48,262 bases of DNA from Candidatus Methanoperedens sp. (GTDB lineage Archaea; Halobacteriota; Methanosarcinia; Methanosarcinales; Methanoperedenaceae): the NCBI GenBank assembly GCA_021409285.1, contig JAGFND010000004.1, positions 1-48,262 on the forward strand, read 5' to 3'. The translations under genes were made by a program, and so were the position numbers. Below are positions 22,612 through 40,586 of this stretch, in pieces. Position 1 is the stretch's first letter, and every line of letters begins with the position of its first letter. The notes beneath the pieces are model-generated. The model ran no database searches. It was given only the letters and a program-made list of their open reading frames with translations, and was not told the origin of the DNA.

Positions 22612-23472
22612 TTGAAAATTCATCCAAGATGCGCACCGTGCTTATTATCCAGAGTACAATTTGAGGCCGAACTATCCACAAAAGATATTGAATTGCAAAA
22701 GAAGGCTGTACTTGTGGGGATCGAAGTGCTCAGGCGATACCTTGCTGACGGCGCACCTGCAACGCATCTTTCCACCAGGATCCACAGGGAAGCTTACAGG
22801 GTGCTCGGAGATATTGATCCGTATCGAGAGAAAAAGCAGCAAAGCAACGAAGCAGCAATGAGGCTCTTGCCGTTCGCAGTGGATTTTGTATCTGAAAAAG
22901 ACTCATTCAGGCGCGCGATACTTGTATCGATTATCGGCAACTCGTTTGATTTTGGAGTTCTCGGGTTTGACGCGGATAAAGCAACAGCCAGGGAAGCGAT
23001 GCAAAAGCAGATCGAGCACGGGCTTGATGTTGATGATAGCGACAAAATAAGATCGATACTGGATAACGTTGTCTATCTTGCGGATAATTGCGGTGAAATT
23101 GTTTTTGATACACTTTTATTCGAGGAGATAAAAAAGCAGAGAGGAAGGATCACGCTTGTTGTAAGGGGTGCGCCGATCCTGAATGATGTTACATTGAAAG
23201 AATTATTAGATCTTGGCATCGATAAAAAGGTTGATAGGGTACTCACTACAGGCTCCAATGCGATCGGAGTCTGCCTGAAAGAGGCGCCGCCTGAACTGGT
23301 TGAGGCACTGCGTGGAGCATCGCTTATTATTAGCAAAGGGATGGCGAATTATGAGACGATGTCGGAGTACGATTTCAGGCCGATAGCATATCTTCTGAAG
23401 ACGAAGTGCGAGTCGGTTGCAGAAGCGATGGGGTTGCAGAAAAATATGAATGTGGCGAGGCTGGAGGAGTAA
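22612..23472 (+). CDS. DUF89 (ARMT1-like) damage-control phosphatase family protein
   Basis: The protein has 286 residues beginning at TTG (KIHPRCAPCLLSRV); a GGAG Shine-Dalgarno stands in place, and the Cys-containing start is conserved in archaeal members. The metal-binding DNCGEIVFDT (about residues 160-169) and ISKGMANYET (about 240-249) motifs are clear. DUF89 proteins are metal-dependent phosphatases thought to remove damaged or excess phosphometabolites; the exact substrate is unknown. It is co-transcribed with polB. Confidence 0.88.
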   Translation: MKIHPRCAPCLLSRVQFEAELSTKDIELQKKAVLVGIEVLRRYLADGAPATHLSTRIHREAYRVLGDIDPYREKKQQSNEAAMRLLPFAVDFVSEKDSFRRAILVSIIGNSFDFGVLGFDADKATAREAMQKQIEHGLDVDDSDKIRSILDNVVYLADNCGEIVFDTLLFEEIKKQRGRITLVVRGAPILNDVTLKELLDLGIDKKVDRVLTTGSNAIGVCLKEAPPELVEALRGASLIISKGMANYETMSEYDFRPIAYLLKTKCESVAEAMGLQKNMNVARLEE

Positions 23473-25280: not shown

Positions 25281-25805
25281 TTAATATAATTCAGGATTAT
25301 CGATCTGTATCCTTGCCATCTCAACTGCGATCTTTGTATAATCTTTCCTGTTGATCCTTCCTTTTGTAAGCCAGCCGATAATACCTTCCTCATACCCGAT
25401 ATCTGGTTTACGGGAAATAGACGAAAATGCTTCCGAGATGGTTACTCCTTCAGTCACGACCTTTTCACTGCTGACAGGTGGATACTCAAAAGCAGGCCCC
25501 AGACCGGGATATATCCTTTTCCCGTCATAAATGGCGCAGCAGCAAAAATTCATGTATCCGCTTATTGTTTCCGGAACTTCTGCGATCCCATCCTCAATCC
25601 CCACAGAGAATTCGCAATCCCCAAAAACCGATCTTGCCCTGAAGATAGCGCCCTTAATGATCTCTGGAAGGCCTATGGGCTGCTCCCTGACACCTGAGAT
25701 GCAGGAAATACCTTCTACGATATATGACGGAAAAGCCTCTTTTACCGCAATGATCTTATTTTTATTCAACGAGGCAACGTGGATTCGTTTTATCTTATCT
25801 GGCAT
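25281..25805 (-). CDS. Inosine/xanthosine triphosphatase family (DUF84)
   Basis: The protein has 174 residues with VASLNKNKIIAVKEAF at the N-terminus (the phosphate-binding SxNx(K)K pattern), FSVGIEDGIAEV in the middle, and GIIGWLTKGRINRKDYTKIA. These match the YjjX/DUF84 family that hydrolyses deaminated NTPs such as ITP and XTP. It lies eight bases downstream of an unknown gene and may share its transcript. Confidence 0.88.
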   Translation of the reverse strand: MPDKIKRIHVASLNKNKIIAVKEAFPSYIVEGISCISGVREQPIGLPEIIKGAIFRARSVFGDCEFSVGIEDGIAEVPETISGYMNFCCCAIYDGKRIYPGLGPAFEYPPVSSEKVVTEGVTISEAFSSISRKPDIGYEEGIIGWLTKGRINRKDYTKIAVEMARIQIDNPELY

Positions 25806-25813
25806 AAATTACT

Positions 25814-26332
25814 TTACTTCATCTTAACTTTAAAGAACTTTATAAAATACTTCCATCCAGTCTTACAAAGATATTTTCTTCTTTTGGGATCTTCTCTTAT
25901 CCAGTCAACAAGATAGAAAAACTGAGCTTTATATTCATCAACAGTTCCTTCAACTATTGCTGGAGGGTTCGGAACGCCCAGGCTACAAAGATATCTGATG
26001 AACAATTGTTCTCCCCTTTCCTGGGCAAGTCCGTCAATTTTCATGACAGTGAATTTATAGCCTTCATTTCTCAGCCATTCTGCTGTCTCATCATGGATGC
26101 AGCCAGAACATATCTCTATATCTTCCTCTTTTCCCACCTTCAATTTGGCAAAACCCTGTTCCACTATTCCTCTTGCACTTGAGAGATACTTCTTCTTTTT
26201 GAAGGTCTCCAGATTGAAATCCTCTATCGGCACAATGTCATAATGCAGCTCCTCTGTTTCCTTACGTATCACGATGATACCCACTCCTCCCACAGGTGTT
26301 CCCCAGCCCTGGTCATCTATCTGGATCGTCAT
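25814..26332 (-). CDS. Uncharacterised archaeal protein adjoining the radical SAM gene
   Basis: This 172-residue soluble protein begins MTIQIDDQGWGTPVGGVGII and ends LCKTGWKYFIKFFKVKMK. The acidic start and GxG pattern recall a conserved family seen across archaea whose function I do not know. Middle parts (ICSGCIHDETAEWLRNEG) show a lone CxxC. It overlaps the radical SAM gene by 20 bases, so the two are translationally coupled and probably act together. A catalytic partner in precursor processing is one possibility; nothing proves it. Confidence 0.55.
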   Translation of the reverse strand: MTIQIDDQGWGTPVGGVGIIVIRKETEELHYDIVPIEDFNLETFKKKKYLSSARGIVEQGFAKLKVGKEEDIEICSGCIHDETAEWLRNEGYKFTVMKIDGLAQERGEQLFIRYLCSLGVPNPPAIVEGTVDEYKAQFFYLVDWIREDPKRRKYLCKTGWKYFIKFFKVKMK

Positions 26333-27644
26333 TTATCAGGAATTCCCGGTCCATTAACTTTCTAATTGTAGGAATTACTTCTTGACTGGCTATATCTATT
26401 AGAAAGCCATCCAACATATCTTCATTTTGACCAACCTGAGTAATTTTTTGTGCGTAAATCTCCATGACCTCCCCAATAGTCCTCTTTCCATCAAAAAGGT
26501 TAAGTAAATGCTCCATTAACGGGTTGATTTCTAACATTTCCTTATTTTTAAGTGAAAGTATTAGAGACGTATCAGGAATCTCATACTTTCTTATTTCAAT
26601 TTCTTCTGACAATTTTGGCTTCATATAGACGATTTCTTCGTCGGTTATCTCCACTGGCATTTTATTTAATTCCATGTACTTAGAAGTAGAAAATCCTAAG
26701 CAACCTCCCTGGCATAAACCCTCCCTGCCATATTTACAATCATAACACTTTTTCATGGGAAAAACTTTGGATTTAAAAGGTTTAAATATCATTTCATAGT
26801 ATTCATAGACCTCGTTTAGAGAGTTAAATTCCTCCAATCTCTTATTAAAAAGGCCTGATGTTCCGAAACATCTCCACACAGATAGATCAGGCCCTATATC
26901 AATAGCTGGAAAGCATGTGAAGTTCCTGCGACGGTCAAGCACTTCCTTTAGCAATAGTTCTCCGAGTTCATCGGGCGAGAGCATACAAAGAGGCACTGTG
27001 TTATCCATCCTGACGCAAACGCCTGAAGCCTCAGCTCTCCTCACGAAATTCATAACAAAAGGCGTTAGAGCACTGTAATCTTCAATTGGAAGGTAGATAT
27101 TCCTGGATTTACCAAAAAGAACAGGCATTGAGAAACTGAGCCTGATATTCGTGAAGCTGTGCTTTGATACTATATCAAATATATATTCACATTGAGGCAC
27201 TTTTTCAAAAATGTTAAAGCTAAGAGTAACGTTTCCTCTCCCCTCTAATGCGAACAGGTTCTCTTCGATTCTCTCCAGATCCCCTGGTCCATAAGTGCCT
27301 GGATGATCTATGTTTAATAAGAAACCGACTTTTGTAGGCGATATATTTGAGAAGAGTTTATTTTTTTCATGGTTCCATAAAGCATTGCTTAATACGTTTA
27401 CATATATGCCTTTTCCTAATATTTTTATCAGTATCTCCTCGAATTTCGGGTGTATTGTGGGCTCACCCCCTGCCAATTGGAGGGAACTGCTCTTGGTTTT
27501 TGCAAGAAAGTCCAGAACTCTATCCAGATCATGAATCGTAATATCAGTGTGGCTTGCTGAACCTCCGGACGAATATATCTTCTCCTTGGCAAAGCAATAA
27601 CCACAGGAGCGGTTACACCTCGTGGTTATTAATAGATTAACCAT
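26313..27644 (-). CDS. Radical SAM/SPASM peptide maturase with PqqD-like C-terminal domain
   Basis: The protein has 443 residues. The radical SAM cluster motif is CNRSCGYC (Cys 10, 14, 17), followed by SLQLAGGEPTIHP, the typical GGEP strand. The SPASM-type C-terminal cysteines include CFGTSG, CYDCKYGREGLCQGGC. The last 80 residues (EINPLMEHLLNLFDGKRTIG, then MDREFLIN) resemble the PqqD-like recognition element that binds RiPP leader peptides. The neighbouring 27692 gene encodes a nitrile-hydratase-type leader peptide, making this a likely ribosomal-peptide maturase. The chemistry (epimerisation, thioether or carbon crosslink) cannot be read; the precursor lacks cysteine, so a Cys-thioether is excluded for it. 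Confidence 0.85.
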   Translation of the reverse strand: MVNLLITTRCNRSCGYCFAKEKIYSSGGSASHTDITIHDLDRVLDFLAKTKSSSLQLAGGEPTIHPKFEEILIKILGKGIYVNVLSNALWNHEKNKLFSNISPTKVGFLLNIDHPGTYGPGDLERIEENLFALEGRGNVTLSFNIFEKVPQCEYIFDIVSKHSFTNIRLSFSMPVLFGKSRNIYLPIEDYSALTPFVMNFVRRAEASGVCVRMDNTVPLCMLSPDELGELLLKEVLDRRRNFTCFPAIDIGPDLSVWRCFGTSGLFNKRLEEFNSLNEVYEYYEMIFKPFKSKVFPMKKCYDCKYGREGLCQGGCLGFSTSKYMELNKMPVEITDEEIVYMKPKLSEEIEIRKYEIPDTSLILSLKNKEMLEINPLMEHLLNLFDGKRTIGEVMEIYAQKITQVGQNEDMLDGFLIDIASQEVIPTIRKLMDREFLINDDPDR

Positions 27645-27691
27645 AGCCCCCCTTCAAAAAAAAGATGGGGGAATGTCTTTAAATGGATCGG

Positions 27692-28039
27692 TCACTCTCG
27701 CCCTTGGAAAACAACCCCAATATCTTCGAATGGATAAACATTCGGTCTAAATCTTATACGACGGCCTAAAAAACTCAGTGCCCTTCCCATTTCAACTTCT
27801 CTCCAATGACCCAGAATTGGATCTAATGGATAGTAGATTGGGCCTGGCGGCAGCCTGATATCAGTCAGCGAATCTATGAACATGGCTGTTCTTTTAATTT
27901 TTTCAATATGCTCGTCACCTAAAGATACACCATTTTTTTTGCCTACTCCTGCAGGATCCTTAAGAAATTCATCTCGAAAATTTCTGTCTTTTGTAGCTTT
28001 TATAAGAAGCTCTCTCAGCCTTTTATCGTCATTTTCCAT
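27692..28039 (-). CDS. NHLP-type leader-peptide protein, candidate RiPP precursor
   Basis: The protein has 115 residues from ATG 28039, chosen because a strong GGAGGAA Shine-Dalgarno precedes it; an in-frame ATG further up is not conserved-looking. Residues 1-52 (LRELLIKATKDRNFRDEFLK, DPAGVGKKNGVSL) have the nitrile-hydratase-alpha leader pattern used by many RiPPs. The rest is Cys-free and rich in Pro, Tyr and Arg (LPPGPIYYPLDPILGHW, FLGRRIRFRPNVYPFEDIG). It is oriented toward, and 47 bases from, the radical SAM gene. No double-Gly cleavage site is plain. It could instead be a small enzyme-associated protein. Confidence 0.7.
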   Translation of the reverse strand: MENDDKRLRELLIKATKDRNFRDEFLKDPAGVGKKNGVSLGDEHIEKIKRTAMFIDSLTDIRLPPGPIYYPLDPILGHWREVEMGRALSFLGRRIRFRPNVYPFEDIGVVFQGRE

Positions 28040-28115
28040 AAATATTTCCTCCCAACATTTAAATGGAACTTCGATATACATATAGTTAATGGTAAAATGG
28101 CATAAAGGAGGAATT

Positions 28116-28682
28116 ATGAAAAAGTCTTTAGGTGCTAAAACTCTTGTTTATCCTGTCCCTGTATGGGTGATAGGAACGTATGACAATGAAAGAAAACCAA
28201 ATGTAGCGACCATAGCATGGGGAGGGATATGTTGCTCCCAACCACCGTGTGTGGCGATCTCTCTTCGGAAAGCCACATATTCGTATGGAAATATTATGGA
28301 CCGAAAAGCGTTCACGGTAAATGTTCCTTCCGAAAAGTACGTAAAGGAAGCAGATTATTTCGGTACTGTATCGGGTAGAAATGTGGACAAGTTCAGTGAA
28401 TCCGGGCTTACGAGCGTTAAGAGCGAACAGGTCGATGCTCCATACTTGAAAGAATTTCCCCTCGTCCTTGAGTGCAAACTGATCCGCATTATTGAAATAG
28501 GATTGCACACGCAATTTATCGGCGAGATCATGGACGTCAAGGCAGATGAACTCGTTATCGGAGAAAATGGACTTACTGATATTGAAAAATTGAAACCGGT
28601 CATATATGCTACGGATACTTCCAGCTATTATGGGATCGGAAAATGTCTTGGAGAGGCATTTTCTATTGGAAAAAAGAGATAG
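28116..28682 (+). CDS. Flavin reductase-like protein (FMN-binding split barrel, flavoredoxin type)
   Basis: The protein has 188 residues from ATG 28116, preceded by AAAGGAGG. The family hallmarks [35 protein letters not shown] and [18 protein letters not shown] are present. It has the CC-type loop found in archaeal members and should bind FMN and pass electrons in an unknown route. It is divergent from the RiPP precursor gene, with 76 bases between starts. A longer start at 28089 lacks a ribosome site. Confidence 0.87.
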
Positions 28683-28737
28683 CTCCGAAATAAATATTAT
28701 CCATGAAGTCTTGAAATATGGATATATAAAGGTTCAA

Positions 28738-29271
28738 ATGGCACTAAAGAAAAATATCGAGAAACAAAGTATTCTAATATCGGCTATCGTATTGATTATC
28801 TCAGTACTTCTATTGATAGATAAATTGCTGGCGACAGCGCCGATACAGTTAATTTTAGAGAACGGCAAGGCAGTACCGATAGAGGGAGCGTCATATTTTT
28901 CATTAAATGAAGTGGTATTTTTTATCATAATTGCATGGCTTGGGGGTATGTCTTTTCTTTATATACTTATGTTCTCCAAGGAAAAACAAATACCTGAATC
29001 CAAAGACGGAAAAATATCTGAATCAAGAATAGATCGCTCAGAAATCCCTGAAAGCAAAAACACTGCCATGTTGGCAGCCAATCTTCTAAACGGTGATGAG
29101 AAAGTATTATTCCAGAAGATACTCGACAATGATATGATATTACAGAGGGATCTGGTTTTCAAAACAGGTTTTTCAGAGCCGAAGGTAAGCAGGCTTCTTG
29201 ACAGGCTTGAAGGGAGAGGTCTCATTGTACGACAAAGAGATGGGATGGGAAATAGGGTATTGATGAAATAG
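28738..29271 (+). CDS. Membrane-anchored winged-helix regulator
   Basis: The protein has 177 residues from ATG 28738; a longer in-frame reading from 28606 runs into the upstream gene and is unlikely. Two membrane segments (ILISAIVLIISVLLLI and NEVVFFIIIAWLGGMSFLYI) flank a short loop outside. A charged linker follows, then a C-terminal winged helix (LQRDLVFKTGFSEPKVSRLL, DRLEGRGLIVRQRDGMGN) of the MarR/COG2512 kind. Such one-component archaeal regulators sit in the membrane and may sense envelope state. Its targets are unknown; the neighbouring export operon is a natural candidate. Confidence 0.75.
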   Translation: MALKKNIEKQSILISAIVLIISVLLLIDKLLATAPIQLILENGKAVPIEGASYFSLNEVVFFIIIAWLGGMSFLYILMFSKEKQIPESKDGKISESRIDRSEIPESKNTAMLAANLLNGDEKVLFQKILDNDMILQRDLVFKTGFSEPKVSRLLDRLEGRGLIVRQRDGMGNRVLMK

Positions 29272-29293
29272 GATAAAAACAATTAGGTATAAA

Positions 29294-29303
29294 CTATATA
29301 AAA
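29294..29303 (+). promoter_or_regulatory. TATA box of the first PHP gene
   Basis: CTATATAAAA lies about 45-50 bases upstream of ATG 29346, leaving a leader of about 20 bases that contains the ribosome site GGGAG. A very similar arrangement precedes the paralogue at 33945, so the promoter was duplicated with the gene. Confidence 0.55.
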
Positions 29304-29345
29304 TCAGTTCTGATCAGCAAATAAAAATAAACAGGGAGCAAAAAT

Positions 29346-30227
29346 ATGCAAGGAATGGGAGTTGTTGATATTCATACTCACACCATATATTCAGGTTTTT
29401 CTAAATTTTCCTTTATATCATATCCGGATAGTGTAACCACTCCCAGGACATCAGTTAAGGTTGCCGAGAAACTGGGGCTCGATATTCTCTGCATAACTGA
29501 TCACAACACGATCAAAGGCGCTGTACAAGCAAAGAAGTTCAATAAGGAACTGGTGGTGATAGGTGAAGAGATTTCCTCTGTTGACGGGGAAATAATCGGG
29601 TTGTTCCTCCAGGAGAATATAGATCCCGGCCTGAGCGGGGAAGAAACTATAGAACAAATACATGGACAGGATGGGATAGCCATTGCTCCACATCCATTCA
29701 GTGGATATTGCTCATGTGTGGGCAGAAAAATGAATTCATTAAGGTTGGATGGGATAGAAGTATTCAATGCTTTGCACAGGGATGGATATTCAAACGCTCT
29801 TGCACTTGAAAAATGTAATGGTCATGCAAAGCTTGGAGGAAGCGACGCGCACGCCAGTTTCATGATAGGGAATGGTTTTACTTTATTTGATGGAAGTTCT
29901 CAGGAAGATTTCCGTACAGGAATAAAAAATAAACAAACAATGTATGGTGGAAAAGTCACATCTCTTTCAGACTTCATATATTGCAGTTCACGTGTCGCAT
30001 ATGAATCGTCAAAGGCCATTCTGAATTCTAATGGCGTGGATTGCCCCCTGTCTGCCAGAATCTCCGAAACAAGATATTCACGGAAGATATTATATTTTCT
30101 GGGGTCTATATTATATGCATTTTCACCACTGCCGGTTGTATGTACCCTTATTGGCAATAGAATATTGAAAAATGAAGGACTCAGAATATGGAGAGATGAA
30201 CACTGTTTCCCTCTGAAAAAGGAGTGA
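29346..30227 (+). CDS. PHP-domain metal-dependent phosphoesterase, paralogue 1
   Basis: The protein has 293 residues. PHP metal ligands appear as DIHTHTIYS (HxH), CITDHNTIKG, GEEIS, IAPHPF and GGSDAHAS in the family order. The catalytic part ends near residue 220, followed by a hydrophobic segment (KILYFLGSILYAFSPLPVVC) that could be membrane-associated. Members hydrolyse phosphate esters or nucleotide phosphates; the substrate is unknown. It is about three-quarters identical, by eye, to the gene at 33945. Both stand before surface or export genes. Confidence 0.88.
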   Translation: MQGMGVVDIHTHTIYSGFSKFSFISYPDSVTTPRTSVKVAEKLGLDILCITDHNTIKGAVQAKKFNKELVVIGEEISSVDGEIIGLFLQENIDPGLSGEETIEQIHGQDGIAIAPHPFSGYCSCVGRKMNSLRLDGIEVFNALHRDGYSNALALEKCNGHAKLGGSDAHASFMIGNGFTLFDGSSQEDFRTGIKNKQTMYGGKVTSLSDFIYCSSRVAYESSKAILNSNGVDCPLSARISETRYSRKILYFLGSILYAFSPLPVVCTLIGNRILKNEGLRIWRDEHCFPLKKE

Positions 30228-30322
30228 TTTCATTTTTTTGAAATTGCTTTCATAAGATCTCAAAACTACTTTCAGGGGGATTTCAGGGAATTCATAAATG
30301 GTCTTTCATCTCAGGAGGAAAC

Positions 30323-30721
30323 ATGAACAAGTTAAAAATATTTGCTCTGGCTATGATCTGTCTGCTCATTATTGCTGCAGGGCTCAGGTTCGTATATTTG
30401 GATACACATTCATTCAAACTTAATGAGGATCAAAAAGTCTTCGCAATAAATGCCGCACAGAAGGGATTAAAAGATGAAATGGCAAATAACAATTATAATG
30501 CTACTGTCCAGGAACACGGGAGGATCGTGCCTTCCACAAATGGTGATAAAAAAGTTGTTCGTGTTGTTCTCACTAATGGAAATACAACATGGACCGCTCT
30601 TGTTGACATGGATACGGGGAATATAGTGGAAAAAAGCATGGTGGAACATAGTGGATGGATGACAGAGCCCGGAGAAGAAGATACCAATCACTGGGGTCAT
30701 CACGGTATATTCAACCGGTGA
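30323..30721 (+). CDS. Small membrane-anchored exported protein, PepSY-like
   Basis: The protein has 132 residues. The N-terminal hydrophobic segment (IFALAMICLLIIAAGLRFVY) anchors it; the outside part has VVRVVLTNGNTTWTALVDMD TGNIVE, resembling a PepSY-type beta unit, and ends with a His-rich NHWGHHGIF. It sits immediately before the MacB-type ATPase, with two bases between stop and start. A Shine-Dalgarno (CAGGAGGAA) precedes ATG 30323. It probably modulates or supplies the transport system. Confidence 0.6.
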   Translation: MNKLKIFALAMICLLIIAAGLRFVYLDTHSFKLNEDQKVFAINAAQKGLKDEMANNNYNATVQEHGRIVPSTNGDKKVVRVVLTNGNTTWTALVDMDTGNIVEKSMVEHSGWMTEPGEEDTNHWGHHGIFNR

Positions 30722-30722
30722 T

Positions 30723-31403
30723 ATGATGAAAACTTTGATGGAACTGCAGGGCGTCTGGAAAATCTATCGGATGGGGGGGACTGACGTGCCTGCACTTGCG
30801 GGAATAGACCTGACAATAAAAGAAAATGAATTTACGGCTATAACAGGACCAAGCGGATGCGGCAAATCAACAATGCTGAATATGATAGGTTGTCTGGATA
30901 TGCCCACACGTGGAAAGATTCTGCTTGAAGGAAAGGATGTATCGGAATTAAAAAGCAATGATCTTGCACGTATAAGAGGTAAAAAGATCGGGTTCATATT
31001 CCAGACTTTTAATCTGTATCCCACGCTGACGGCTCTTGAAAATATTCAACTGCCAATGAAGATCCATGAATTTTCGGAAAAAAAGATAGAAGACACATCA
31101 ACTAAACTTTTGGTTACTGTTGGATTGGCTGAACGTGGAGCTCATTTCCCTGCCCAGTTGTCCGGAGGACAGCAGCAGAGGGTCGCGGTAGCAAGAGCGC
31201 TCTCTACATCTCCTTCTATTCTCCTTGCAGATGAACCCACAGGGAATCTTGACACCAAATCGGGAGGCGAAGTAATGGACGTTTTTAAACGCTTAAACAG
31301 TGAGGGATTAACTATAGTTATGATAACGCATGACCCCAGAATTGCAGGATATGCAGAAAGAATAGTGAAAATGCTTGATGGAAAAATAGTAGGTGAAACA
31401 TGA
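30723..31403 (+). CDS. MacB/LolD-type ABC transporter ATPase, system 1
   Basis: The protein has 226 residues. Walker A is GPSGCGKST, Q-loop FIFQTFNLYP, signature LSGGQQQRVAVARAL, Walker B ILLADEPTGNLD, H-loop MITHDP. It belongs to the ATPase class that drives type VII ABC systems (MacB, LolCDE, FtsEX), which transmit force rather than pump through the membrane. It overlaps the exoprotein gene by four bases. Partner permease is at 32610. Confidence 0.93.
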   Translation: MMKTLMELQGVWKIYRMGGTDVPALAGIDLTIKENEFTAITGPSGCGKSTMLNMIGCLDMPTRGKILLEGKDVSELKSNDLARIRGKKIGFIFQTFNLYPTLTALENIQLPMKIHEFSEKKIEDTSTKLLVTVGLAERGAHFPAQLSGGQQQRVAVARALSTSPSILLADEPTGNLDTKSGGEVMDVFKRLNSEGLTIVMITHDPRIAGYAERIVKMLDGKIVGET

Positions 31404-32623
31404 AAAAATTCATTTTGATCTTAATGATCGTATCGACATTATTGTTCGCAGAGGTAGCATCCGCAACCTCTGGTTATCTTGTTACTGAAAGCGCACCGGT
31501 TTATCCAGGAGATATGACTTATGTCTATGTACCGATAAAGAACATGGGATTTGGCTCATATATGGAAGATGTATCGGTCAGACTTGTACCCAAAGATAAT
31601 GCTTCAGCAACTGCTGTGACTATCCTTAACGATGTTTATTCATTGGGGACTATAAACGACTGGGGTGACCAGAGGACAGCAAAGTTCAGGGTCCACGTAA
31701 ATCCTGAGGCTGTGGAAGGGGATTATTATTTCAATATCTATATTACCTTTATGGGGCAGCAAATAAGCAGTGGAACTCCGGCAACTCCAATGACCACCAA
31801 ACTCGAGGACCAGATATTGACAATCAAAGGCAAGCCGTTAATAGTGCTCCTCAATTCTACTATCAGTACGATAGCGCCGATGAGTATCAATAAGGAGACG
31901 CTCATTTTCAAGAATACAGGTACAGGCACGGTACAGAACGCCGTAGCAGAGATAAATCTTGCAGGAGCGAATTCAGTGTTCTCTGTTCTGGGCGGAGGAT
32001 CTCAATCTTCCCTCGGCAATCTGAAAGCAGGTGATGAAGTCGATATTACTTTTGACCTTGCCGTAGATATTGCTGCCCGTCCTGGCGTATATAACATACC
32101 TCTGAAAATTACCGGCATGAATAATTATTCTTCTACAGATTATATCGGAGTTGTTGTTGCAGGGACTACTGATTTTGAGATAAGTTACCAGGAGAGTCTG
32201 GGCTCATTTTCCCTCAATGTGCTAAACATAGGGGTTAATGAGGCCAGTGCAGTTGCTGTCAGCCTGCCACGTCAGAAGAATTTTTCTTTAACAGGAACTA
32301 ATTCATCCGTTCTTGGTAATTTAAATCCCGGTGATTACACGTCCGCAATATTCCAGATCACAAAAACCCCTGGAACAGGAAACATCCTTGAATTGGCGAT
32401 ACAATATACTGACACAAGCGGAAAACGATATACACTGGCAAAACAGCTCACTGTTGAGCTAACAAGCGGCGGTGGGCAGACCGGAACAAGAACAACAGGA
32501 ACGAACTATACGGTATGGGCACTTGTAATTGTGGCAATCCTTATCCTTTTCTGGCAGAGGAAAAAGATCCCGGGTTTGATTAAAAAACAAAAAATAACAG
32601 GCGAAACTAATGAGAATCTTTGA
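31400..32623 (+). CDS. COG1361-type exoprotein with CARDB-like repeats, system 1
   Basis: The protein has 407 residues. It has a signal peptide (FILILMIVSTLLFAEVASA), then three Ig-like beta domains of the CARDB/NEW3 type (PVYPGDMTYVYVPIKNMGF; SINKETLIFKNTGTGTVQNA; FSLNVLNIGVNEASAVAVSL). A C-terminal membrane helix (VWALVIVAILILFW) and a basic tail RKKIPG follow. It should sit outside, tethered, and contact the permease's outer domain as MacA does in bacteria; this comparison is inference. It overlaps both neighbouring genes. Confidence 0.82.
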   Translation: MKKFILILMIVSTLLFAEVASATSGYLVTESAPVYPGDMTYVYVPIKNMGFGSYMEDVSVRLVPKDNASATAVTILNDVYSLGTINDWGDQRTAKFRVHVNPEAVEGDYYFNIYITFMGQQISSGTPATPMTTKLEDQILTIKGKPLIVLLNSTISTIAPMSINKETLIFKNTGTGTVQNAVAEINLAGANSVFSVLGGGSQSSLGNLKAGDEVDITFDLAVDIAARPGVYNIPLKITGMNNYSSTDYIGVVVAGTTDFEISYQESLGSFSLNVLNIGVNEASAVAVSLPRQKNFSLTGTNSSVLGNLNPGDYTSAIFQITKTPGTGNILELAIQYTDTSGKRYTLAKQLTVELTSGGGQTGTRTTGTNYTVWALVIVAILILFWQRKKIPGLIKKQKITGETNENL

Positions 32624-33863
32624 TATTTTCAGTCTGTCACTGAGTCACGTTAAAAAAAGCAAAATGCGAAGCTGGCTCACCATAATAGGTATTGTAATAG
32701 GTGTGGCTGCGGTCGTCTCTATAATTTCCATAGGTGAGGGGATGCAGGAAAGTGTTCAATCCCGTCTTGGAAGTCTTGGAGCTGACCTGATCACTGTTAC
32801 TCCTGGTTTTTCGAGGGCAACCGGCGGCGGTTTTGAAGGGGGGAGATCAGCTCCAGGTGCCAGTATTAACCTTACTGATAAAGATGTGAACGTTATCAGG
32901 CAGGTACCCGGTGTGCTATATGTAAACGGTATGGTTTCGGGCAGGTCAGATATGGTATCAGGTACAGAAAAGACATCAGTATCCATAAGTGGGGTTGATA
33001 CTGCTGTCTGGCGCTCAATGGTCACTACACAACTTGAATCTGGCAGATATCTTCAGCCAGGTGACTCGAACTCAGTGGTCATCGGTTACTCACTGGCCCA
33101 TGAGACTTTCTTGCAGCCTTTAACCCTGAATAGACCAATCATAATAGGAGACAAGACTTTCAAGGTCGCCGGAATCTTTGTTCAATCAGGAGGGGGTTTC
33201 GGAGGAGGAGGAGGAGATAATGCAGTTTTTATGACTGCTGATTACGCCAGGGATGTGATAACGACGAATATATCCAGAAACACATTTAGTTCGATCATGG
33301 TTAAGGTATCAGATCCCACGCTCGCAGATAAAGTGGCTGGAGATATCATACTAAAACTTATGCCGTCAAGGCATGTGAATCAAAGAACCAGAGATTTTAC
33401 AGTCACAGCATTTGCCACAATACAGGCTCAGATAACAAGTGTGGTCCAGACCATATCGATGTTCCTTGCCGCGATAGCAGCGGTTTCGCTTATTGTAGGC
33501 GCTGTGGGCATAGCGAATACCATGTTCATGTCGGTTATGGAACGCACCAGGCAGATAGGATTGCTCAAGGCTCTTGGGGCTACAGATAATGAAGTGATGG
33601 AACTGTTCCTTATAGAATCCGGATTATTCGGATTTATCGGAGGAGTGATCGGAATAATAACCGGAATATTGATATCGGTCTTAATATCCGAAATAGGCCT
33701 TCGTGCAATAGGGCCTGGAGGGGCAATGAACGCAGTTGTCACTCCTCAACTTGTTGTATTTTCACTTGTATTCTCTGTATTCATTGGCGTGATCTCAGGT
33801 GTTGCGCCTGCAAGGTCAGCGGCAAAGATGAATCCGGTGGATGCATTGAGGTTTGAACAGTAG
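32610..33863 (+). CDS. MacB/FtsX-type permease, system 1
   Basis: The protein has 417 residues. The first membrane helix is in the SWLTIIGIVIGVAAVVSIIS region, followed by a large outside MacB_PCD domain (MQESVQSRLGSLGADLITVT, up to about residue 270) with a Gly-rich loop GGGFGGGGGD. Three C-terminal helices follow, starting FLAAIAAVSLIVGAVGIANT and with MERTRQIGLLKALGA. This is the standard MacB/FtsX layout. With ATPase and COG1361 protein it forms one operon. Confidence 0.92.
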   Translation: MRIFDIFSLSLSHVKKSKMRSWLTIIGIVIGVAAVVSIISIGEGMQESVQSRLGSLGADLITVTPGFSRATGGGFEGGRSAPGASINLTDKDVNVIRQVPGVLYVNGMVSGRSDMVSGTEKTSVSISGVDTAVWRSMVTTQLESGRYLQPGDSNSVVIGYSLAHETFLQPLTLNRPIIIGDKTFKVAGIFVQSGGGFGGGGGDNAVFMTADYARDVITTNISRNTFSSIMVKVSDPTLADKVAGDIILKLMPSRHVNQRTRDFTVTAFATIQAQITSVVQTISMFLAAIAAVSLIVGAVGIANTMFMSVMERTRQIGLLKALGATDNEVMELFLIESGLFGFIGGVIGIITGILISVLISEIGLRAIGPGGAMNAVVTPQLVVFSLVFSVFIGVISGVAPARSAAKMNPVDALRFEQ

Positions 33864-33902
33864 GAGATTTATCTGCAACATGAAATTAAACAATACTAAA
33901 AT

Positions 33903-33912
33903 CTTTATACTA
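33903..33912 (+). promoter_or_regulatory. TATA box of the second PHP gene
   Basis: CTTTATACTA lies about 35-40 bases before ATG 33945, with a CAGGGGG ribosome site in between. The pattern matches the promoter of the paralogue at 29346. Confidence 0.5.
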
Positions 33913-33944
33913 TAGGGACTAATACTAGAAGCAGGGGGCAAAAT

Positions 33945-34820
33945 ATGCAGGATATAGGAGTCGCGGATATTCATACACACACCATGTATTCAGGTTTCTC
34001 GAAATATTCGTTTTTATCATTCCCGGATAGTGTAACCACTCCCAGGAAATCAATTAAGGCTGCCGAAAAACTGGGACTCAATATTCTATGCATAACTGAT
34101 CACAACACGATTAAAGGTGCACTTGTTGCTCAAAAGTACAATAAGGATCTGGTTGTGATCGGTGAAGAGATATCTTCAAACGACGGTGAAATATTGGGAT
34201 TGTTCCTTCAAGAGCAAGTCGATCCCGGCTTAAGTGCCGAAGAAACAATTAAACAAATACATAGTCAGGATGGGATAGCCATTGCTCCCCATCCTTATAG
34301 TGTATATTGTTCGTGTGTGGGTGAAAAAATGAACGCATTGAAGTTTGACGGGATCGAAGTATTCAATTCATTACACAGGGATGGATATTCAAATGCTCTT
34401 GCACTGGAGAATTGTAATGGGCATGCGAAGCTTGGCGGAAGTGACGCGCATGCAAGTTATATGATAGGAAACGGTTATACGTTATTTAATGGAAATTCTC
34501 AGGAAGATTTTCGTAATGCCATCAAGAATAGAAAAACAATTTATGGTGGAAAAGTCGCATCTCTTATGGATTTTGTCAATTATAGTGCACGGGTAGCTTA
34601 TGAATCCTCAAAGACGATCCTTAAGTTCAACAGCGTAGATTGCCCCATGTCTGCCAGAATATCCAGGGTAAGAAATTCACGCAAGATATCATATCTGCTG
34701 GGTTCTCTCGCCTTTGCATTTTCACCTCTGCCTGTTGTTTGCACCCTGATAGGCGATAGGGTGTTGAAACATAAAGGACTTAAAATATGGAGAGATGTAC
34801 ACCGTTTTCCTTTGAGATAA
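33945..34820 (+). CDS. PHP-domain metal-dependent phosphoesterase, paralogue 2
   Basis: The protein has 291 residues. All metal-ligand blocks of the first paralogue are kept (DIHTHTMYS, ITDHNTIKG, GEEIS, APHPYS, GGSDAHAS), together with the hydrophobic C-terminal segment (SYLLGSLAFAFSPLPVVC). Its position directly after the first export operon suggests a tandem duplication of a block. It is convergent with the CorA-fusion gene, 14 bases apart. Confidence 0.87.
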   Translation: MQDIGVADIHTHTMYSGFSKYSFLSFPDSVTTPRKSIKAAEKLGLNILCITDHNTIKGALVAQKYNKDLVVIGEEISSNDGEILGLFLQEQVDPGLSAEETIKQIHSQDGIAIAPHPYSVYCSCVGEKMNALKFDGIEVFNSLHRDGYSNALALENCNGHAKLGGSDAHASYMIGNGYTLFNGNSQEDFRNAIKNRKTIYGGKVASLMDFVNYSARVAYESSKTILKFNSVDCPMSARISRVRNSRKISYLLGSLAFAFSPLPVVCTLIGDRVLKHKGLKIWRDVHRFPLR

Positions 34821-34834
34821 GGATGGATTCTCAA

Positions 34835-36268
34835 CTACTTTAACCAGCCGCGCCTGTAAAAGGCATATACTGACAGGAGCATTAGAGATAACTCAAGAAA
34901 AAATAGCTCAGTGATACTGACTGGATACGGGCTATCCACCAGATTCACTCCAAAGAGCCCGCTGATGATTGAGGGGATAAGCCCAATGCTGGTGATCACT
35001 GCAAGAATTCTCATGACGCTGTTTAACCCGATAGATACCGTATTTATATGAAACTCTATCAATGAGATCAAATTGTCTCTAACATTTTCCGATGTTTCAG
35101 ACAGATAGGTTGACTCATCATAGAGAATGCCAAAGAGGGGAAGATACCCATCTTTTGAACCGGCAAATAATAGCTTCCCACTACTTATAGCTTTGAGCAC
35201 CTGCGTAAAATGCCAGAGATTGCCGTGGATTTTCTGGATCTCTTTCTTGAAGTGGAAAGTATCCTCCAGAAATGAAGGACGCGCCATGCCTGCAGGATTT
35301 TCTTCCATTGCGATTTCTTTTTGTTCAAGGAGCCGCACAACCTCATCATAATCCACGATTTTTCCTCTGAAAATTGAGTACAGGATGCTAACAATAAACT
35401 TCTCTTTTTTTTCCATAACCTGGCCATCGCTGATCAGCTGATCAAATAGCTCACTTTTACCAGCGGAAATTGTGGCGATATAGTTGCCTCTGAGGATAAT
35501 CAGCATTTTGTTTATTGAGAAATCGATATCCTTGATACCCGCACCTTCTGATTGCAGTTTCATATCCCTGATGAATATTGAGGTAAAGTCCTTAAAGAAG
35601 TCAATCTTTGGATAGGATTCTTTGATGATTTTACTTATTAGCAAAAACGAGGGGATTTTTAGGGCATCACTGATGATATCAATATCAGGCTCTGAAACCT
35701 CCTGTAAATCGACCCATCGATACGCAAAATCAGCCAGATGGCCAGAGAGATCTTCCTTCAATGCGCCTTTTATTGTCTTTCCATCCGTAAGAATGTTGAT
35801 CTTCATCCGCGAGACCAGCGGCCCGGTTCTCTTTATGGGTCTTACCGGGATGGCCCGTTTGACCGTTCTACCCGCTACAGCAAATATCCTGGTAACCCTG
35901 AGGAGTCTGAGCAGGGGTGATGTTCTTCCGATTCCCCCAAATGGAATCCATGGGATGAAGGTTGGTAAAGTCAGGGCAACGATCAAAAGATCAAGGATAT
36001 GCCACGGATTTGTGGCATATGCCCTCCTCGAATCTGCTACATACAACTTTGAAAAGTACTCAAGTGCAAAGATTACAATAATAATATAGTTCACAACTCT
36101 GAATAAGACTATCATGAAGTGTGAAAATATAAATAAAAAAGGTAAGAATATGGTCGGAATTAACAGCAATGCAAGCACTATCATCAGATGGTCTGTGAAT
36201 ATCTGATATACAGGGTCTCTCAACCTGAGGCGTAGCGGCAGTTTTTTCCCTGTGGATTGTGACTGCAT
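34835..36268 (-). CDS. Voltage-sensor-like domain fused to CorA-family metal channel
   Basis: The protein has 477 residues. Residues about 25-145 hold four membrane segments of the ion-channel voltage-sensor type: S1 (LMIVLALLLIPTIFLPF), S2 with an acidic ALEYFSKLYV, S3 NPWHILDLLIVALTLP, and S4 with arginines every third residue (LLRLLRVTRIF). No S5-pore-S6 follows. Instead a CorA-type cytoplasmic domain runs to about residue 415, with the two CorA helices at the end (MRILAVITSIGLIPSIISG and LFFLELSLMLLSVYAF). The selectivity motif is GVN (GLFGVNL) in place of GMN. It probably moves divalent cations; voltage gating is inferred from the fusion. Confidence 0.82.
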   Translation of the reverse strand: MQSQSTGKKLPLRLRLRDPVYQIFTDHLMIVLALLLIPTIFLPFLFIFSHFMIVLFRVVNYIIIVIFALEYFSKLYVADSRRAYATNPWHILDLLIVALTLPTFIPWIPFGGIGRTSPLLRLLRVTRIFAVAGRTVKRAIPVRPIKRTGPLVSRMKINILTDGKTIKGALKEDLSGHLADFAYRWVDLQEVSEPDIDIISDALKIPSFLLISKIIKESYPKIDFFKDFTSIFIRDMKLQSEGAGIKDIDFSINKMLIILRGNYIATISAGKSELFDQLISDGQVMEKKEKFIVSILYSIFRGKIVDYDEVVRLLEQKEIAMEENPAGMARPSFLEDTFHFKKEIQKIHGNLWHFTQVLKAISSGKLLFAGSKDGYLPLFGILYDESTYLSETSENVRDNLISLIEFHINTVSIGLNSVMRILAVITSIGLIPSIISGLFGVNLVDSPYPVSITELFFLELSLMLLSVYAFYRRGWLK

Positions 36269-36352
36269 ATAAACTTTAATAGTATCCTGATGGGAAATAT
36301 CCTTGGATTTCCTTCATGGATTTCTATCAATTGAAGTCGGTCTTGAAAATTA

Positions 36353-36637
36353 TTATAACTCAAATTCTTCAATAAAACCCAGTATTAATTTGTATTTATC
36401 CAGATATCTAAATCCTTTATCAGTCAATGTCAGGAACTTCCTTTCATTTTCATCAGTAATCTCCTTGATCAAACCCTTTTCTAATAATTCATTAAAGTAT
36501 TCTGAAAAACTTTGTGACGATAGATTCGAATGTCTGAGCAAAGGAGTAGGCTTTATAGAATTATGATGATTTCTAATAATATTTAAAATATCAAATATCA
36601 TCTCCAGACGATCTCTTTTGCGCTTTATTTTGTCCAT
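36353..36637 (-). CDS. Winged-helix regulator, archaeal HTH_45 type
   Basis: The protein has 94 residues (RLEMIFDILNIIRNHHNSIK, then TPLLRHSNLSSQSFSEYFNE LLEKGLI, and LTLTDKGFRYLDKY). This is the archaeal helical-winged-helix type (PF14947). It overlaps by 13 bases the preceding membrane-protein gene, so it is co-translated with it and may regulate the divergent secreted-protein operon at 37407. Confidence 0.8.
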   Translation of the reverse strand: MDKIKRKRDRLEMIFDILNIIRNHHNSIKPTPLLRHSNLSSQSFSEYFNELLEKGLIKEITDENERKFLTLTDKGFRYLDKYKLILGFIEEFEL

Positions 36638-37290
36638 CTGGACACCTTTTGGTAGATTATTCCGATCACTGCAATAGATATTATCTCTAAGATAGTATGT
36701 ATTTCAAATGGAATAAATCTTCGTGGACCTAAGGCGAGGAGATTAACTATCCAGAACAGGAAAAACAAAAAATATAAAATAAAAAGCTGGGAGATCTTTC
36801 TTGATCTGCTGTAAATATATATAGCCATTATTATTGTGAAAATGAGTAACACTGCCTGTGCTTCTATAAGAAGATCCGATGATCTTGAAAAAAATGTGAT
36901 TCCGGATATTATAATGGCAACAGCATTTGATAATATTAACACATGTTTGATCTGCAGCTCCTTCCAGATCATGCTGTAAGTCAATGAGAGAATACCCATT
37001 GTGCTAAAATATCCATTAAAAACCAAAGGAAATATCCTGAAAATATATCTTGAAATATCGATATCAAATGTCATTCCCATTAGCATCACAAAAACAGATA
37101 AAAATCTAAACAGAAAGGCCAGACCGAAGAATAAAAAAGTGATCCTGAAATATTTTATTCCCTCATACTTTGTAAGATCATATATTTCTCTTGTTTTATA
37201 ATATATTGAAAAACAAATAAATACAACTATTAATGTGTAGCTAAGTTCTACGAGCAGTCTCGTTGGGTCAATCAGATGATATGGGGACAT
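36625..37290 (-). CDS. Seven-helix membrane protein of unknown function
   Basis: The protein has 221 residues, nearly all hydrophobic, with about seven membrane segments (LLVELSYTLIVVFICFSIYY at the start, AVAIIISGITFF, AQAVLLIFTIIMAIYIY, LFILYFLFFLFWIVNLLAL, near the end). No channel, transporter or signalling motif stands out. Paired with a winged-helix gene, it resembles archaeal sensor/regulator pairs; this is only context. It is divergent from the 37407 gene with a 116-base shared promoter region. Confidence 0.6.
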   Translation of the reverse strand: MSPYHLIDPTRLLVELSYTLIVVFICFSIYYKTREIYDLTKYEGIKYFRITFLFFGLAFLFRFLSVFVMLMGMTFDIDISRYIFRIFPLVFNGYFSTMGILSLTYSMIWKELQIKHVLILSNAVAIIISGITFFSRSSDLLIEAQAVLLIFTIIMAIYIYSRSRKISQLFILYFLFFLFWIVNLLALGPRRFIPFEIHTILEIISIAVIGIIYQKVSRWTK

Positions 37291-37406
37291 ATATGATCTA
37301 TATTTTTCCTGAACATTGATAAAAAAAGTGGACTTGTAGTGTACATTTTACCTTCTCTTCTCTTATAAGTGTGTTCTGATAATATAGTGTTCGAGGTGAC
37401 TCAAAA

Positions 37407-37934
37407 ATGAATAGAAAAAAATTATATGGTTTGCTGGCTATCACAATAGTTGTAGCAACCATCGGGTCAGTCGCGGCATATGGAGGGAAATTCCCAGGAA
37501 TTAATCCCCAGAGCAGAGATAATATAACAAATGCTATAAAAACAAACAACTACAATGCCTGGCAAGCAGAGATGTCCGCACAATTGACGCAGGACAATTT
37601 CAATAAGCTTGTGCAGAGATATCAGACAATGTCCCAGAAGTATGGAAACATGTCTGAAAAGCAAGGAACAAGGTTTTATGGAAGACAAGCCTTGAATGCA
37701 GAAATGATCCAGGCGATAAAAGATGGAAAGTACGATGCATGGAAAACAGCTGCAGTGAATTCGAAATCTCCGCTGGTATCAAAGATTACCAATCAGGATG
37801 AGTTCAATATACTTGTTCAGCTTTATCAGGCAAAACAAGACGGAAATAAGACGAAAGTAATGGAACTAAGTCAACAGCTTGGATTGCCCGCAGGAAATGG
37901 CAATCATAAAATGTACAGGCATTTTGGAAGATGA
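37407..37934 (+). CDS. Secreted repeat protein of unknown function
   Basis: The protein has 175 residues. It has a signal peptide (LYGLLAITIVVATIGSVAAY), then two similar halves: ITNAIKTNNYNAWQAEMSAQ ... FNKLVQRYQTM, and IQAIKDGKYDAWKTAAVNSK ... FNILVQLYQAK. The AIK-xx-Y-AW core and FN-LVQ-Y spacing recur. The repeat unit is about 70 residues. A Gly/His-rich tail (NGNHKMYRHFGR) ends it. A GAGGTGAC Shine-Dalgarno precedes ATG 37407. It is followed by the cytochrome gene and the second export system, suggesting a surface role. Confidence 0.7.
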   Translation: MNRKKLYGLLAITIVVATIGSVAAYGGKFPGINPQSRDNITNAIKTNNYNAWQAEMSAQLTQDNFNKLVQRYQTMSQKYGNMSEKQGTRFYGRQALNAEMIQAIKDGKYDAWKTAAVNSKSPLVSKITNQDEFNILVQLYQAKQDGNKTKVMELSQQLGLPAGNGNHKMYRHFGR

Positions 37935-37996
37935 AGGTTGATAAATCACAACCTTCTCATGTTATTGTATGATTCACCGGAAAGGAAATCTGATAT

Positions 37997-38512
37997 ATGA
38001 TTAAAAAAACATTAATATTATTACTTTTTCTTGCAATAGCAATTCTGTCAGTAGTCCCGGAGTCTTTTGCACGGCCCCAGTATGTTGCAAATCTAACAAC
38101 AGTATATGGCGATGATTCATGCAGCACCTGCCATGTCATAGCTTCAGGCAGTGGAATGCGCGACTCCAATGGAACATTCGGACAGCAAAACCCTAACGGG
38201 ACTTATGTCCCACGCAATACCAACAGAACACCAGGGCAGCGTCGCTCAAATGGAACGTTCGGAATGCGTAACTCAAACAGAACGTTCCCGCGCAACTCGT
38301 ATGGGACCTTATTTGAGAACCAGCCTGACCATGCTACTGATCCCGGTGCAGCCCTGATAGCTATCGGGCAGCCACCTGCAGCAACGGCAATCCCCCCTGC
38401 AGATACAGCAGTGACGGCCACAGGGACTAAAGCGGCTCCAGGACTCGGAATTGTGTTATCCCTTGTCGGATTATTTACATGTGCTCTCCTGGCCAGGCGG
38501 CATAATAAATGA
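37997..38512 (+). CDS. Exported monoheme c-type cytochrome with sequon-rich linker and membrane-anchor tail
   Basis: The protein has 171 residues. It has a signal peptide (ILILLLFLAIAILSVVPESF), then one heme-binding CSTCH motif (about residues 42-46), with a Met in SGSGM as possible sixth ligand. Next is a linker with repeated SNGTFG and NRT units carrying six N-x-T sequons, then an Ala/Pro/Thr stretch. The tail APGLGIVLSLVGLFTCALLA RRHNK resembles the PGF-CTERM sorting signal read by archaeosortase, suggesting lipid anchoring and S-layer placement. It directly precedes and overlaps by four bases the second MacB-type ATPase gene. It could carry electrons to or from outside proteins. Confidence 0.75.
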   Translation: MIKKTLILLLFLAIAILSVVPESFARPQYVANLTTVYGDDSCSTCHVIASGSGMRDSNGTFGQQNPNGTYVPRNTNRTPGQRRSNGTFGMRNSNRTFPRNSYGTLFENQPDHATDPGAALIAIGQPPAATAIPPADTAVTATGTKAAPGLGIVLSLVGLFTCALLARRHNK

Positions 38513-39216
38513 TGGAAACTATAATGGAACTGCAGGATGTCTGGAAAATTTACAGGATGGGCGAAGTGGAAGTTCCAGCACTGAAAGGAATAAGTGTTAA
38601 GATAAAGAAAGGCGACTTTGTGGCTATCATAGGTGCATCGGGAAGCGGCAAGTCCACAATGATGAACCTGATAGGCTGTCTTGATATTCCCTCAAGAGGG
38701 AATATCTATCTCAAATCGCAGGATATAAGCTCTTTAGGCGAATCTGACCTGGCATCATTCAGAGGTAGGACTATTGGTTTCATTTTCCAGCAATACAACC
38801 TGATCCAATCAATGTCTGCTTTTGAGAACGTGATGCTTCCACTGGAATTTTTGGAGTATAATGACCAGAAAGCAGCGACAAGAACAAGAGAAATTTTGAC
38901 ACTTGTGGGACTGGGCGATAAGATGCATCACAGGCCAACACAACTTTCTGGAGGTCAGCAGCAAAGAGTGTCCATAGCAAGATCCCTTGTGAGTGATCCT
39001 GAAATAATTCTTGCCGATGAACCGACTGGAGCCCTGGACAGTGTTACAGGCAGAGAAGTCCTGGATATGCTTCGCAGATTATGGGAAGAGCAGGGAAAAA
39101 CGATCATCATGGTCACTCATGATCTTAATCTGGCGAAATATGCTCACACAAGAATTGAACTGAAAGATGGGGAGATTTTGAAAATATCTGAAAATAATGA
39201 GGTAAATAAGAAATGA
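38509..39216 (+). CDS. MacB/LolD-type ABC transporter ATPase, system 2
   Basis: The protein has 235 residues. Walker A is GASGSGKST, Q-loop FIFQQYNLIQ, signature LSGGQQQRVSIARSL, Walker B IILADEPTGALD, H-loop VTHDLN. It is a paralogue of the ATPase at 30723 (shared start ELQDVWKIYRMGEVEVPAL against ELQGVWKIYRMGG). It overlaps the cytochrome and exoprotein genes by four bases each, so the whole set is one translation-coupled operon. Confidence 0.93.
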   Translation: MMETIMELQDVWKIYRMGEVEVPALKGISVKIKKGDFVAIIGASGSGKSTMMNLIGCLDIPSRGNIYLKSQDISSLGESDLASFRGRTIGFIFQQYNLIQSMSAFENVMLPLEFLEYNDQKAATRTREILTLVGLGDKMHHRPTQLSGGQQQRVSIARSLVSDPEIILADEPTGALDSVTGREVLDMLRRLWEEQGKTIIMVTHDLNLAKYAHTRIELKDGEILKISENNEVNKK

Positions 39217-40586
39217 AAAAAATAATGTTCCCAGTTATGCTAATACTGGTATTGATGGCTTACGCACCTGCAGTTAATGCGGCGCTGGCAGACTCGACAG
39301 TACTATCGATAAGCCTTGCAAACTATGACCCCAATCCTGCTATCGCAGGAGATACTGTAGATGTACGCATAGGTATCCAGAATATCGGCGGTACCACTAC
39401 TAACGATCTTATGCTGGAAATTGTACCAGAGTATCCTTTTGAGCTTGTACCAGGTGAAAACGCCGTCCAGGATGTAGGAATAGTTCAAGAGTATCAGGCG
39501 GATTCTACTCAAAATATAAAAGTCGTAACGTACCATATGCAAATAAACAAAAACGCTCCGGCAGGAAGTTACGAACTCAAAGTTAAGTATTATGAGCAGG
39601 GTTCAAACGAGGTGACTCAGAAAAGCCTGTCCCTTGAAGTAAAAAGCAAGGAAAGCGCTGAAGTTATACACATTGACCAGACGATGCTCGTTCCTGGAAA
39701 GCAAAGCAGCTTAAAATTCACAATCAATAATGTCGGGAATGCTCCATTGAGGGATTTGACTTTCAGCTGGGCGAATGATGATAAGATAATCCTTCCAGTC
39801 GGAAGTGACAATACCAAATATATCAGGTATATTGATATTGGCAATGGCACTGACCTGGAATACCAGGTGATGGCAGATACTAATGCACAGCCGGGATTAT
39901 ATAAACTGAACTTATACCTGACTTATGAAGATTCAATGTCAAATCAAACGAAAACAATAAGCACATTTGCCGGAGTTTATGTTGGCGGAGGAACAGATTT
40001 CGATGTGGCATTCTCGGATAATACAAATGGCCAAATGTCTTTCAGCGTCGCAAATATTGGAAGCAATCCTGCAAACTCGGTATCAGTGGTTATTCCCGAT
40101 CAGCCAGGCTGGAGTGCAAGCGGTTCAAATTCAGTTATCATAGGCAATCTGAACAAAGGAGACTATACGGTTGCAAGCTTCAAGTTGCAGTCCATGATAA
40201 GTAATATGACTTCCATGACTTCCCAGAATAGATCCTTCAGAAACAATACCAACTTCCAGGGAAGGTCTATGCAAAGACAAACAAATAGTTCATCTGATAC
40301 ATTGCTCATACAAATAGCTTACACCGATACCAGGGGAGAAAGAAATGTCGTTGAAAAATATGTCAAAATCGGACTGCAAAACATCGCATCTGCTGATGGA
40401 CAAGCCGGTTTTCAGGGACGAAGAGGAGCCGCACAACAAACAAGTTTTCTCTCTAATAACATGCTGTATTTCCTGGGAATAACGGTGCTTGTTGGTGCTG
40501 TTGTAGTCCACAGGAAGTACAAGAGCCGCAAACTGCTTGATCCTGGTTTCAAAATGAAGGATTTATTCAAACACCAGAAGAAATGA
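39213..40586 (+). CDS. COG1361-type exoprotein, system 2
   Basis: The protein has 457 residues. It has a signal peptide (MLILVLMAYAPAVNAAL), then CARDB-like beta domains (PNPAIAGDTVDVRIGIQNIG; MLVPGKQSSLKFTINNVGNA; GQMSFSVANIGSNPANSVSV). An Asn/Thr/Ser-rich insert (MTSMTSQNRSFRNNTNFQGR) with sequons follows, then a C-terminal helix (MLYFLGITVLVGAVVVH). It is a paralogue of the 31400 gene with the same order of parts but a longer third section. It would be tethered outside the membrane beside the permease. Confidence 0.82.
   Translation: MKKIMFPVMLILVLMAYAPAVNAALADSTVLSISLANYDPNPAIAGDTVDVRIGIQNIGGTTTNDLMLEIVPEYPFELVPGENAVQDVGIVQEYQADSTQNIKVVTYHMQINKNAPAGSYELKVKYYEQGSNEVTQKSLSLEVKSKESAEVIHIDQTMLVPGKQSSLKFTINNVGNAPLRDLTFSWANDDKIILPVGSDNTKYIRYIDIGNGTDLEYQVMADTNAQPGLYKLNLYLTYEDSMSNQTKTISTFAGVYVGGGTDFDVAFSDNTNGQMSFSVANIGSNPANSVSVVIPDQPGWSASGSNSVIIGNLNKGDYTVASFKLQSMISNMTSMTSQNRSFRNNTNFQGRSMQRQTNSSSDTLLIQIAYTDTRGERNVVEKYVKIGLQNIASADGQAGFQGRRGAAQQTSFLSNNMLYFLGITVLVGAVVVHRKYKSRKLLDPGFKMKDLFKHQKK

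Follow-up and report, generated by a model that had tools for sequence, protein, structure and literature searches.

A candidate two-gene NHLP-type RiPP cassette with a radical SAM maturase carrying a PqqD-like tail in Candidatus Methanoperedens

Three neighboring genes on a contig of the methane-oxidizing archaeon Candidatus Methanoperedens sp. (JAGFND010000004.1) raise the question of whether a RiPP is encoded here and, if so, which of the three genes contribute to it. The window, meaning the whole stretch of 48,262 nucleotides that was analyzed, contains ORFs for a small Cys-free protein, a radical SAM enzyme, and a 172-residue protein, all of which were confirmed on the minus strand. The initial annotation had joined them into one three-gene unit. 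The reading preferred here, with a probability of about 0.68, is narrower: the first two genes would form a laterally acquired NHLP (proteusin-like) RiPP cassette of a precursor and a radical SAM maturase with a PqqD-like tail. The features discussed are the following.

27692-28039, minus strand: encoded precursor protein, 115 residues, Cys-free (ORF; NF038399 E 2.8e-7; TIGR03793 E 8e-5; GGGAGGAAATATTT before the ATG)
27890-28021, minus strand: NHLP/Os1348-type leader stretch, residues 7-50 (NF038399 match in the whole-genome search, E 6.1e-7)
27695-27868, minus strand: putative core, approximately residues 58-115, Pro/Tyr/Arg-rich (sequence past the leader profile; presumed boundary)
26313-27644, minus strand: radical SAM maturase, 443 residues (Pfam Radical_SAM E 1.7e-10; relatives in Chlorohelix and Thiodictyon)
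27594-27617, minus strand: CxxxCxxC [4Fe-4S]-SAM motif, C10/C14/C17 (invariant in three aligned relatives)
26700-26987, minus strand: SPASM-like auxiliary-cluster Cys region, C220, C244, C259, C300, C303, C311, and C315 (seven Cys invariant in a three-sequence alignment; TIGR04085 E 0.0015)
26373-26543, minus strand: PqqD-like RRE tail, approximately residues 368-424 of the maturase (TIGR03859 E 0.0029, profile positions 24-80 of 81)
26313-26332, minus strand: 20-nt junction overlap (the conserved 5′ end of the gene for the 172-residue protein, read in another frame, supplies the final maturase codons and stop)
25814-26332, minus strand: gene of the 172-residue "partner," a core-genome protein with an RNase H-like predicted fold, excluded from the unit (70-82% identity in 28 Methanoperedens contigs that lack both other genes)
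26333-41918, no strand: 15.6-kb segment between two loci that are near neighbors in eight relatives, with the precursor–maturase pair at one edge (position of hypA/hyp in relatives)

The precursor and the maturase

The 115-residue protein, which contains LPPGPIYYPLDPILGHW, begins with a stretch that resembles the leaders of the Os1348-family NHLP clan. It scores 30.5 bits against NF038399 (E 2.8e-7 per protein; curated cut-off 40) and 22.4 bits against TIGR03793 (E 8e-5; cut-off 50.9), whereas the Pfam family Frankia_peptide matches more weakly than NF038399 (E 0.03). In a six-frame search of its own genome, the precursor is the sole NF038399 match at E ≤ 1e-3. Hence, the nitrile-hydratase-type leader that the initial annotation had proposed is a match beyond chance, although still below the curated cut-off. 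The remainder of the protein, the putative core, is long (approximately 58 residues), and its homologues were absent from approximately 300 Halobacteriota genomes, plasmids, and IMG/VR contigs, where solely leader-like matches appeared. The precursor has no GG cleavage site. An apparent internal core repeat (PIYYPLDPI / PNVYPFEDI) was rejected, as 509 of 3000 shuffled sequences score equally well.

The maturase gene starts 47 nt downstream of the precursor gene in the same direction. Both genes are preceded by a purine-rich ribosome-binding tract, which for the maturase is the Shine-Dalgarno-like GGGGGG. A promoter scan with exclusively bacterial models yielded no excess over shuffled sequences. 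The GC contents of precursor (39.9%) and maturase (38.4%) are slightly below those of most neighbors, and the GC3 of the precursor is low (0.29); these values are indecisive for lateral gain.

The match of the maturase to Radical_SAM (PF04055) lies above the cut-off. Its middle part and tail, scanned apart, match SPASM (TIGR04085; 18.9 bits, cut-off 27) and PqqD (TIGR03859) weakly and below the curated cut-offs, each at the expected place. The putative SPASM domain is degenerate. The radical SAM enzyme with SPASM cysteines and a PqqD-like tail described earlier is thus supported beside the precursor, with weak scores for both of these regions. The AlphaFold single-sequence model of the maturase, with a mean pLDDT of 42, does not confirm the RRE fold. 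None of the NCBIfam equivalogs is approached: the best is viperin-like, with 47 of 180 bits and within the first 90 residues only. As to a grouping with anaerobic sulfatase maturases or heme-pathway enzymes (AhbC/D, NirJ), which the initial annotation had named as a refutation, no equivalog fits; the AhbC profile reaches 26 of 650 bits in the N-terminal radical SAM part only, and a sulfatase maturase profile is absent from the best 25 matches.

Among RiPPs, the class with NHLP leaders is that of the proteusins. Like NHLP (proteusin/Os1348-clan) precursors of the NF038399/TIGR03793 type, the window precursor combines a putative helical N-terminal leader with an adjoining maturase that has a PqqD-like domain. 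However, it differs from them by its sub-cut-off scores, the missing GG site, and a long, Cys-free, Pro/Tyr/Arg-rich C-terminal part. C-terminally fused RRE domains have been described for proteusins (PMC7470986). As none of the 115 residues is a Cys, the precursor does not belong to the sactipeptides or ranthipeptides with their Cys thioethers, and the earlier statement that sactipeptide-type links are ruled out in the precursor holds. PlpXY-type splicease systems are defined by a core with an XYG splice motif together with a PlpY-type partner. The window pair is not a member of this group either, since the precursor has no YG and no third RiPP gene stands beside the maturase.

The 172-residue protein and the genomic setting

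Homologues of the 172-residue protein with 70-82% identity are encoded on 28 Methanoperedens contigs, and on none of these does a maturase or precursor gene stand ahead of the homologue's gene. Instead, a DUF84 NTPase gene (inosine/xanthosine triphosphatase family) follows on its 3′ side in nearly all sufficiently long contigs. The proposed co-occurrence of three genes is therefore not seen, and the three-gene unit of the initial annotation falls away: its supposed partner is a genus-wide core gene paired with DUF84. In the window, this pair of RNase H-like protein and DUF84 family protein occupies 25281-26332 and is possibly a nucleic-acid quality-control pair. Distant homologues of the 172-residue protein occur in four other Halobacteriota genomes and on a Geosporobacter plasmid. 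On the latter (Geosporobacter ferrireducens, NZ_CP017270.1), the 38% homologue lies at 22623-23120, where the PLSDB gene table has no feature.

Conservation extends along the full length of the 172-residue protein (mean column identity 82%), which is the enzyme-like pattern that the initial annotation had named as a refutation for the small protein. Its predicted structure (pLDDT 76, pTM 0.73) best matches the catalytic cores of integrases (105-119 residues, with Z as high as 11) and the RNase HII of Archaeoglobus (Z 9.1, 154 residues). The fold predicted by the model is thus RNase H-like; such a fold alone shows no function. As a RiPP factor, the protein is not worth pursuing, and the comparison averts a false lead.

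The sequence ATGACGATCCAGATAGATGACCAG at the start of the 172-residue protein's gene is conserved in relatives without the maturase, and the stop of the maturase, TGA, lies within this conserved start. Hence, the overlap with the maturase gene is secondary.

In the wider setting, the precursor–maturase pair occupies the inner border of a segment that relatives lack at this place. A hypA/hyp pair, with hypA-like names assigned by eye, is located at 41919-43301 of the window, 15.6 kb from the gene of the 172-residue protein. In eight relatives, a hypA-like pair of 69-86% identity is found near this gene, in most of them approximately 0.7-1.4 kb upstream; in other relatives, the genes upstream of it vary. 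The flavin reductase gene on the other side is present in 16 of 31 genus genomes, also in ones without the precursor–maturase pair. The segment also encodes MacB-type ABC transporters (30.7-33.9 kb and 38.5-41.8 kb); they are on the opposite strand and show no sign of a connection to the pair. Reading the window by eye, no protease or dedicated peptide exporter was recognized next to it. The precursor–maturase pair was probably gained laterally, which its patchy occurrence fits.

Relatives of the maturase and NHLP systems in other archaea

The maturase is found in one of 31 genus genomes and in one of 392 Halobacteriota genomes at E ≤ 1e-10; the second match within the genus, in G008, is to another radical SAM enzyme. 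Relatives of the precursor were found neither in the 30 other genus genomes nor in approximately 300 Halobacteriota genomes. Pattern scans of genome contigs and viral contigs returned no maturase relative, and phage records match the maturase over its first 90 residues only.

For bacteria, the search covered mainly plasmids, and the closest relatives found are encoded there: WP_341472204.1 of Candidatus Chlorohelix allophototropha (28% identity over 79% of the maturase, E 1e-28) and WP_100922708.1 of Thiodictyon syntrophicum (24% identity over 71%, E 8e-16). In the alignment of these three sequences, the SAM motif, GGEPT, and seven Cys on the C-terminal side are invariant. The Thiodictyon enzyme shares with the maturase the MNLL start, CxxxCxxC, GGEPT, the seven auxiliary Cys, and a C-terminal PqqD-like tail, which matches the lasso PqqD chaperone profile with E 6.6e-5. 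Its cluster differs in that it comprises an upstream PqqD-radical SAM protein, an amidohydrolase, YcaO, and TfuA, and no NHLP precursor was recognized in it. The Chlorohelix enzyme has the same Cys pattern but is devoid of the C-terminal tail. Just before its gene, a separate 98-residue protein is encoded, which may take the place of the tail domain; it looks PqqD-like by eye, yet had no hmmscan match. Two PapB-like radical SAM genes flank this locus, and proteins with Cys-rich C termini are also among the neighbors. With PapB-like, PqqD-radical SAM, and YcaO/TfuA proteins as neighbors, the best-related enzymes thus occupy RiPP-type surroundings.

NHLP leaders are present in 7 of 392 Halobacteriota genomes. 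Five NHLP regions besides the window have radical SAM neighbors, which belong to other families than the maturase. PapB-like radical SAM enzymes stand beside NHLP precursors in G186, G173, and G293. Full-length RiPP C-methyltransferases (TIGR03975, 576-594 bits) do so in G293 and G361, both of which encode two tandem NHLP precursors with these full-scoring radical SAM enzymes; the region of G361 additionally contains a daptide/epipeptide-type HExxH protease gene. The loci of G293 and G361 are convincing archaeal NHLP RiPP clusters. G008, another Methanoperedens species, encodes a 94-residue, Cys-containing NHLP precursor together with a YydG-epimerase-like and a second radical SAM gene (L006:1399-2700 and L093:6642-9092). 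No radical SAM gene was recognized in the NHLP region of G301, and a weak NF038399 match in G028 (L004) was rejected, being 261 residues long and unlike a precursor.

The systems of G186, G173, G293, G361, and G008 resemble the window pair in that a radical SAM enzyme adjoins a precursor whose leader belongs to the same family. They differ from it in the radical SAM families involved and in that the fully read precursors have Cys near the C terminus. As NHLP leaders adjoin radical SAM genes elsewhere in Halobacteriota, the pairing is recurrent though rare in archaea, and the window pair is one variant of it. Predicted radical-SAM-modified RiPP clusters are widespread in Euryarchaeota (PMC12144867). 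Together with the NHLP/radical SAM neighbors in other Halobacteriota, this makes the earlier remark that RiPPs are little known in methanogen-type archaea an overstatement. Among the papers searched, none ties Ca. Methanoperedens to RiPP biology.

Two further radical SAM loci were observed in the same genome. At G000:C169 (L078:1855-7205), a 230-residue protein with repeated EPVH/EPAH motifs (WMEPVH, IEPVH, MEPVHRPH, MEPVHF, and WLEPAHW) is flanked by radical SAM/SPASM and B12-type radical SAM genes on one side and by a YydG-epimerase-like gene on the other. It is a candidate multi-core RiPP precursor, with no family match and no relative within the genus. At G000:C112 (L077:1631-3802), a 723-residue B12-type radical SAM protein matches the RiPP C-methyltransferase family TIGR03975 (E 7e-37) and has a C-terminal PqqD-like domain. 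Its gene adjoins the 3′ end of an mcrA-like gene (methyl-coenzyme M reductase alpha, by eye), and the protein might modify methyl-coenzyme M reductase.

Weighing of the readings and proposed mechanism

Some radical SAM/SPASM enzymes act on proteins in place, as with sulfatases and QhpC. By this precedent, the 115-residue protein could be a small substrate protein or subunit, e.g., a protein cofactor or electron carrier, that keeps a leader-like helix and is radically modified without being cut. The long, charged C-terminal part and the lack of a recognizable cleavage motif, exporter, or protease in the window agree with this. However, the NHLP leader family serves RiPP precursors, and related archaea have such leaders beside peptide maturases, in G361 also with the HExxH protease gene, so that we regard modification in place as unlikely. 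Still less probable is a decaying or orphan cassette, i.e., a non-functional piece of a larger RiPP cluster that arrived from bacteria. A precursor and a maturase are indeed all that is present, in a single genome of the 31, and the stop codon borrowed from the start of the downstream gene suggests an edited junction. Against decay, both ORFs are intact and have ribosome-binding sites, the full set of radical SAM and auxiliary Cys is retained, and the PqqD-like region stops ahead of the junction. A system in which the 172-residue protein cooperates as an accessory would draw on the shared strand and the 20-nt overlap; it is highly improbable given that this gene is genus-wide, occurs in every relative without the other two and normally before DUF84, has homologues on the Geosporobacter plasmid and in other Halobacteriota, and encodes a predicted RNase H-like fold.

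For the preferred two-gene cassette, the sequence of events that we infer, from RRE function and leader binding through the chemistry to release and a biological role, would start at the tail of the maturase. Its PqqD-like domain would bind the leader of the precursor and thereby bring the core, which lacks Cys, into the active site of the radical SAM enzyme. There, the SAM cluster would generate a 5′-deoxyadenosyl radical, this radical would take a hydrogen atom off the core, and the electron would pass to one or two auxiliary clusters, completing the oxidation. Since the core contains no Cys, the product could not be a thioether within the precursor. With a SPASM-type enzyme and no Cys, the chemistry would most likely be crosslinking of the aromatic/Pro-rich core through a C-C (or C-O) bond, with epimerization in second place.

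A more far-reaching proposal, which is unlikely, is that an uncharted radical SAM subfamily with an N-terminal SAM core, seven auxiliary Cys, and a C-terminal RRE is thinly spread over Chloroflexota, Gammaproteobacteria, and this anaerobic methane-oxidizing archaeon, and that it crosslinks an NHLP precursor without Cys by a bond other than a thioether, giving a new archaeal peptide class. The kind of system is already known; its novelty lies in an archaeal host, a radical SAM subfamily that is not classified, and a substrate without Cys. With only two genes and a fused predicted leader-binding domain, co-expression would be easy. The maturase indicates a radical SAM subfamily that none of the NCBIfam equivalogs covers, and, if the preferred reading is right, a compact precursor–maturase pair would be added to Ca. 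Methanoperedens.
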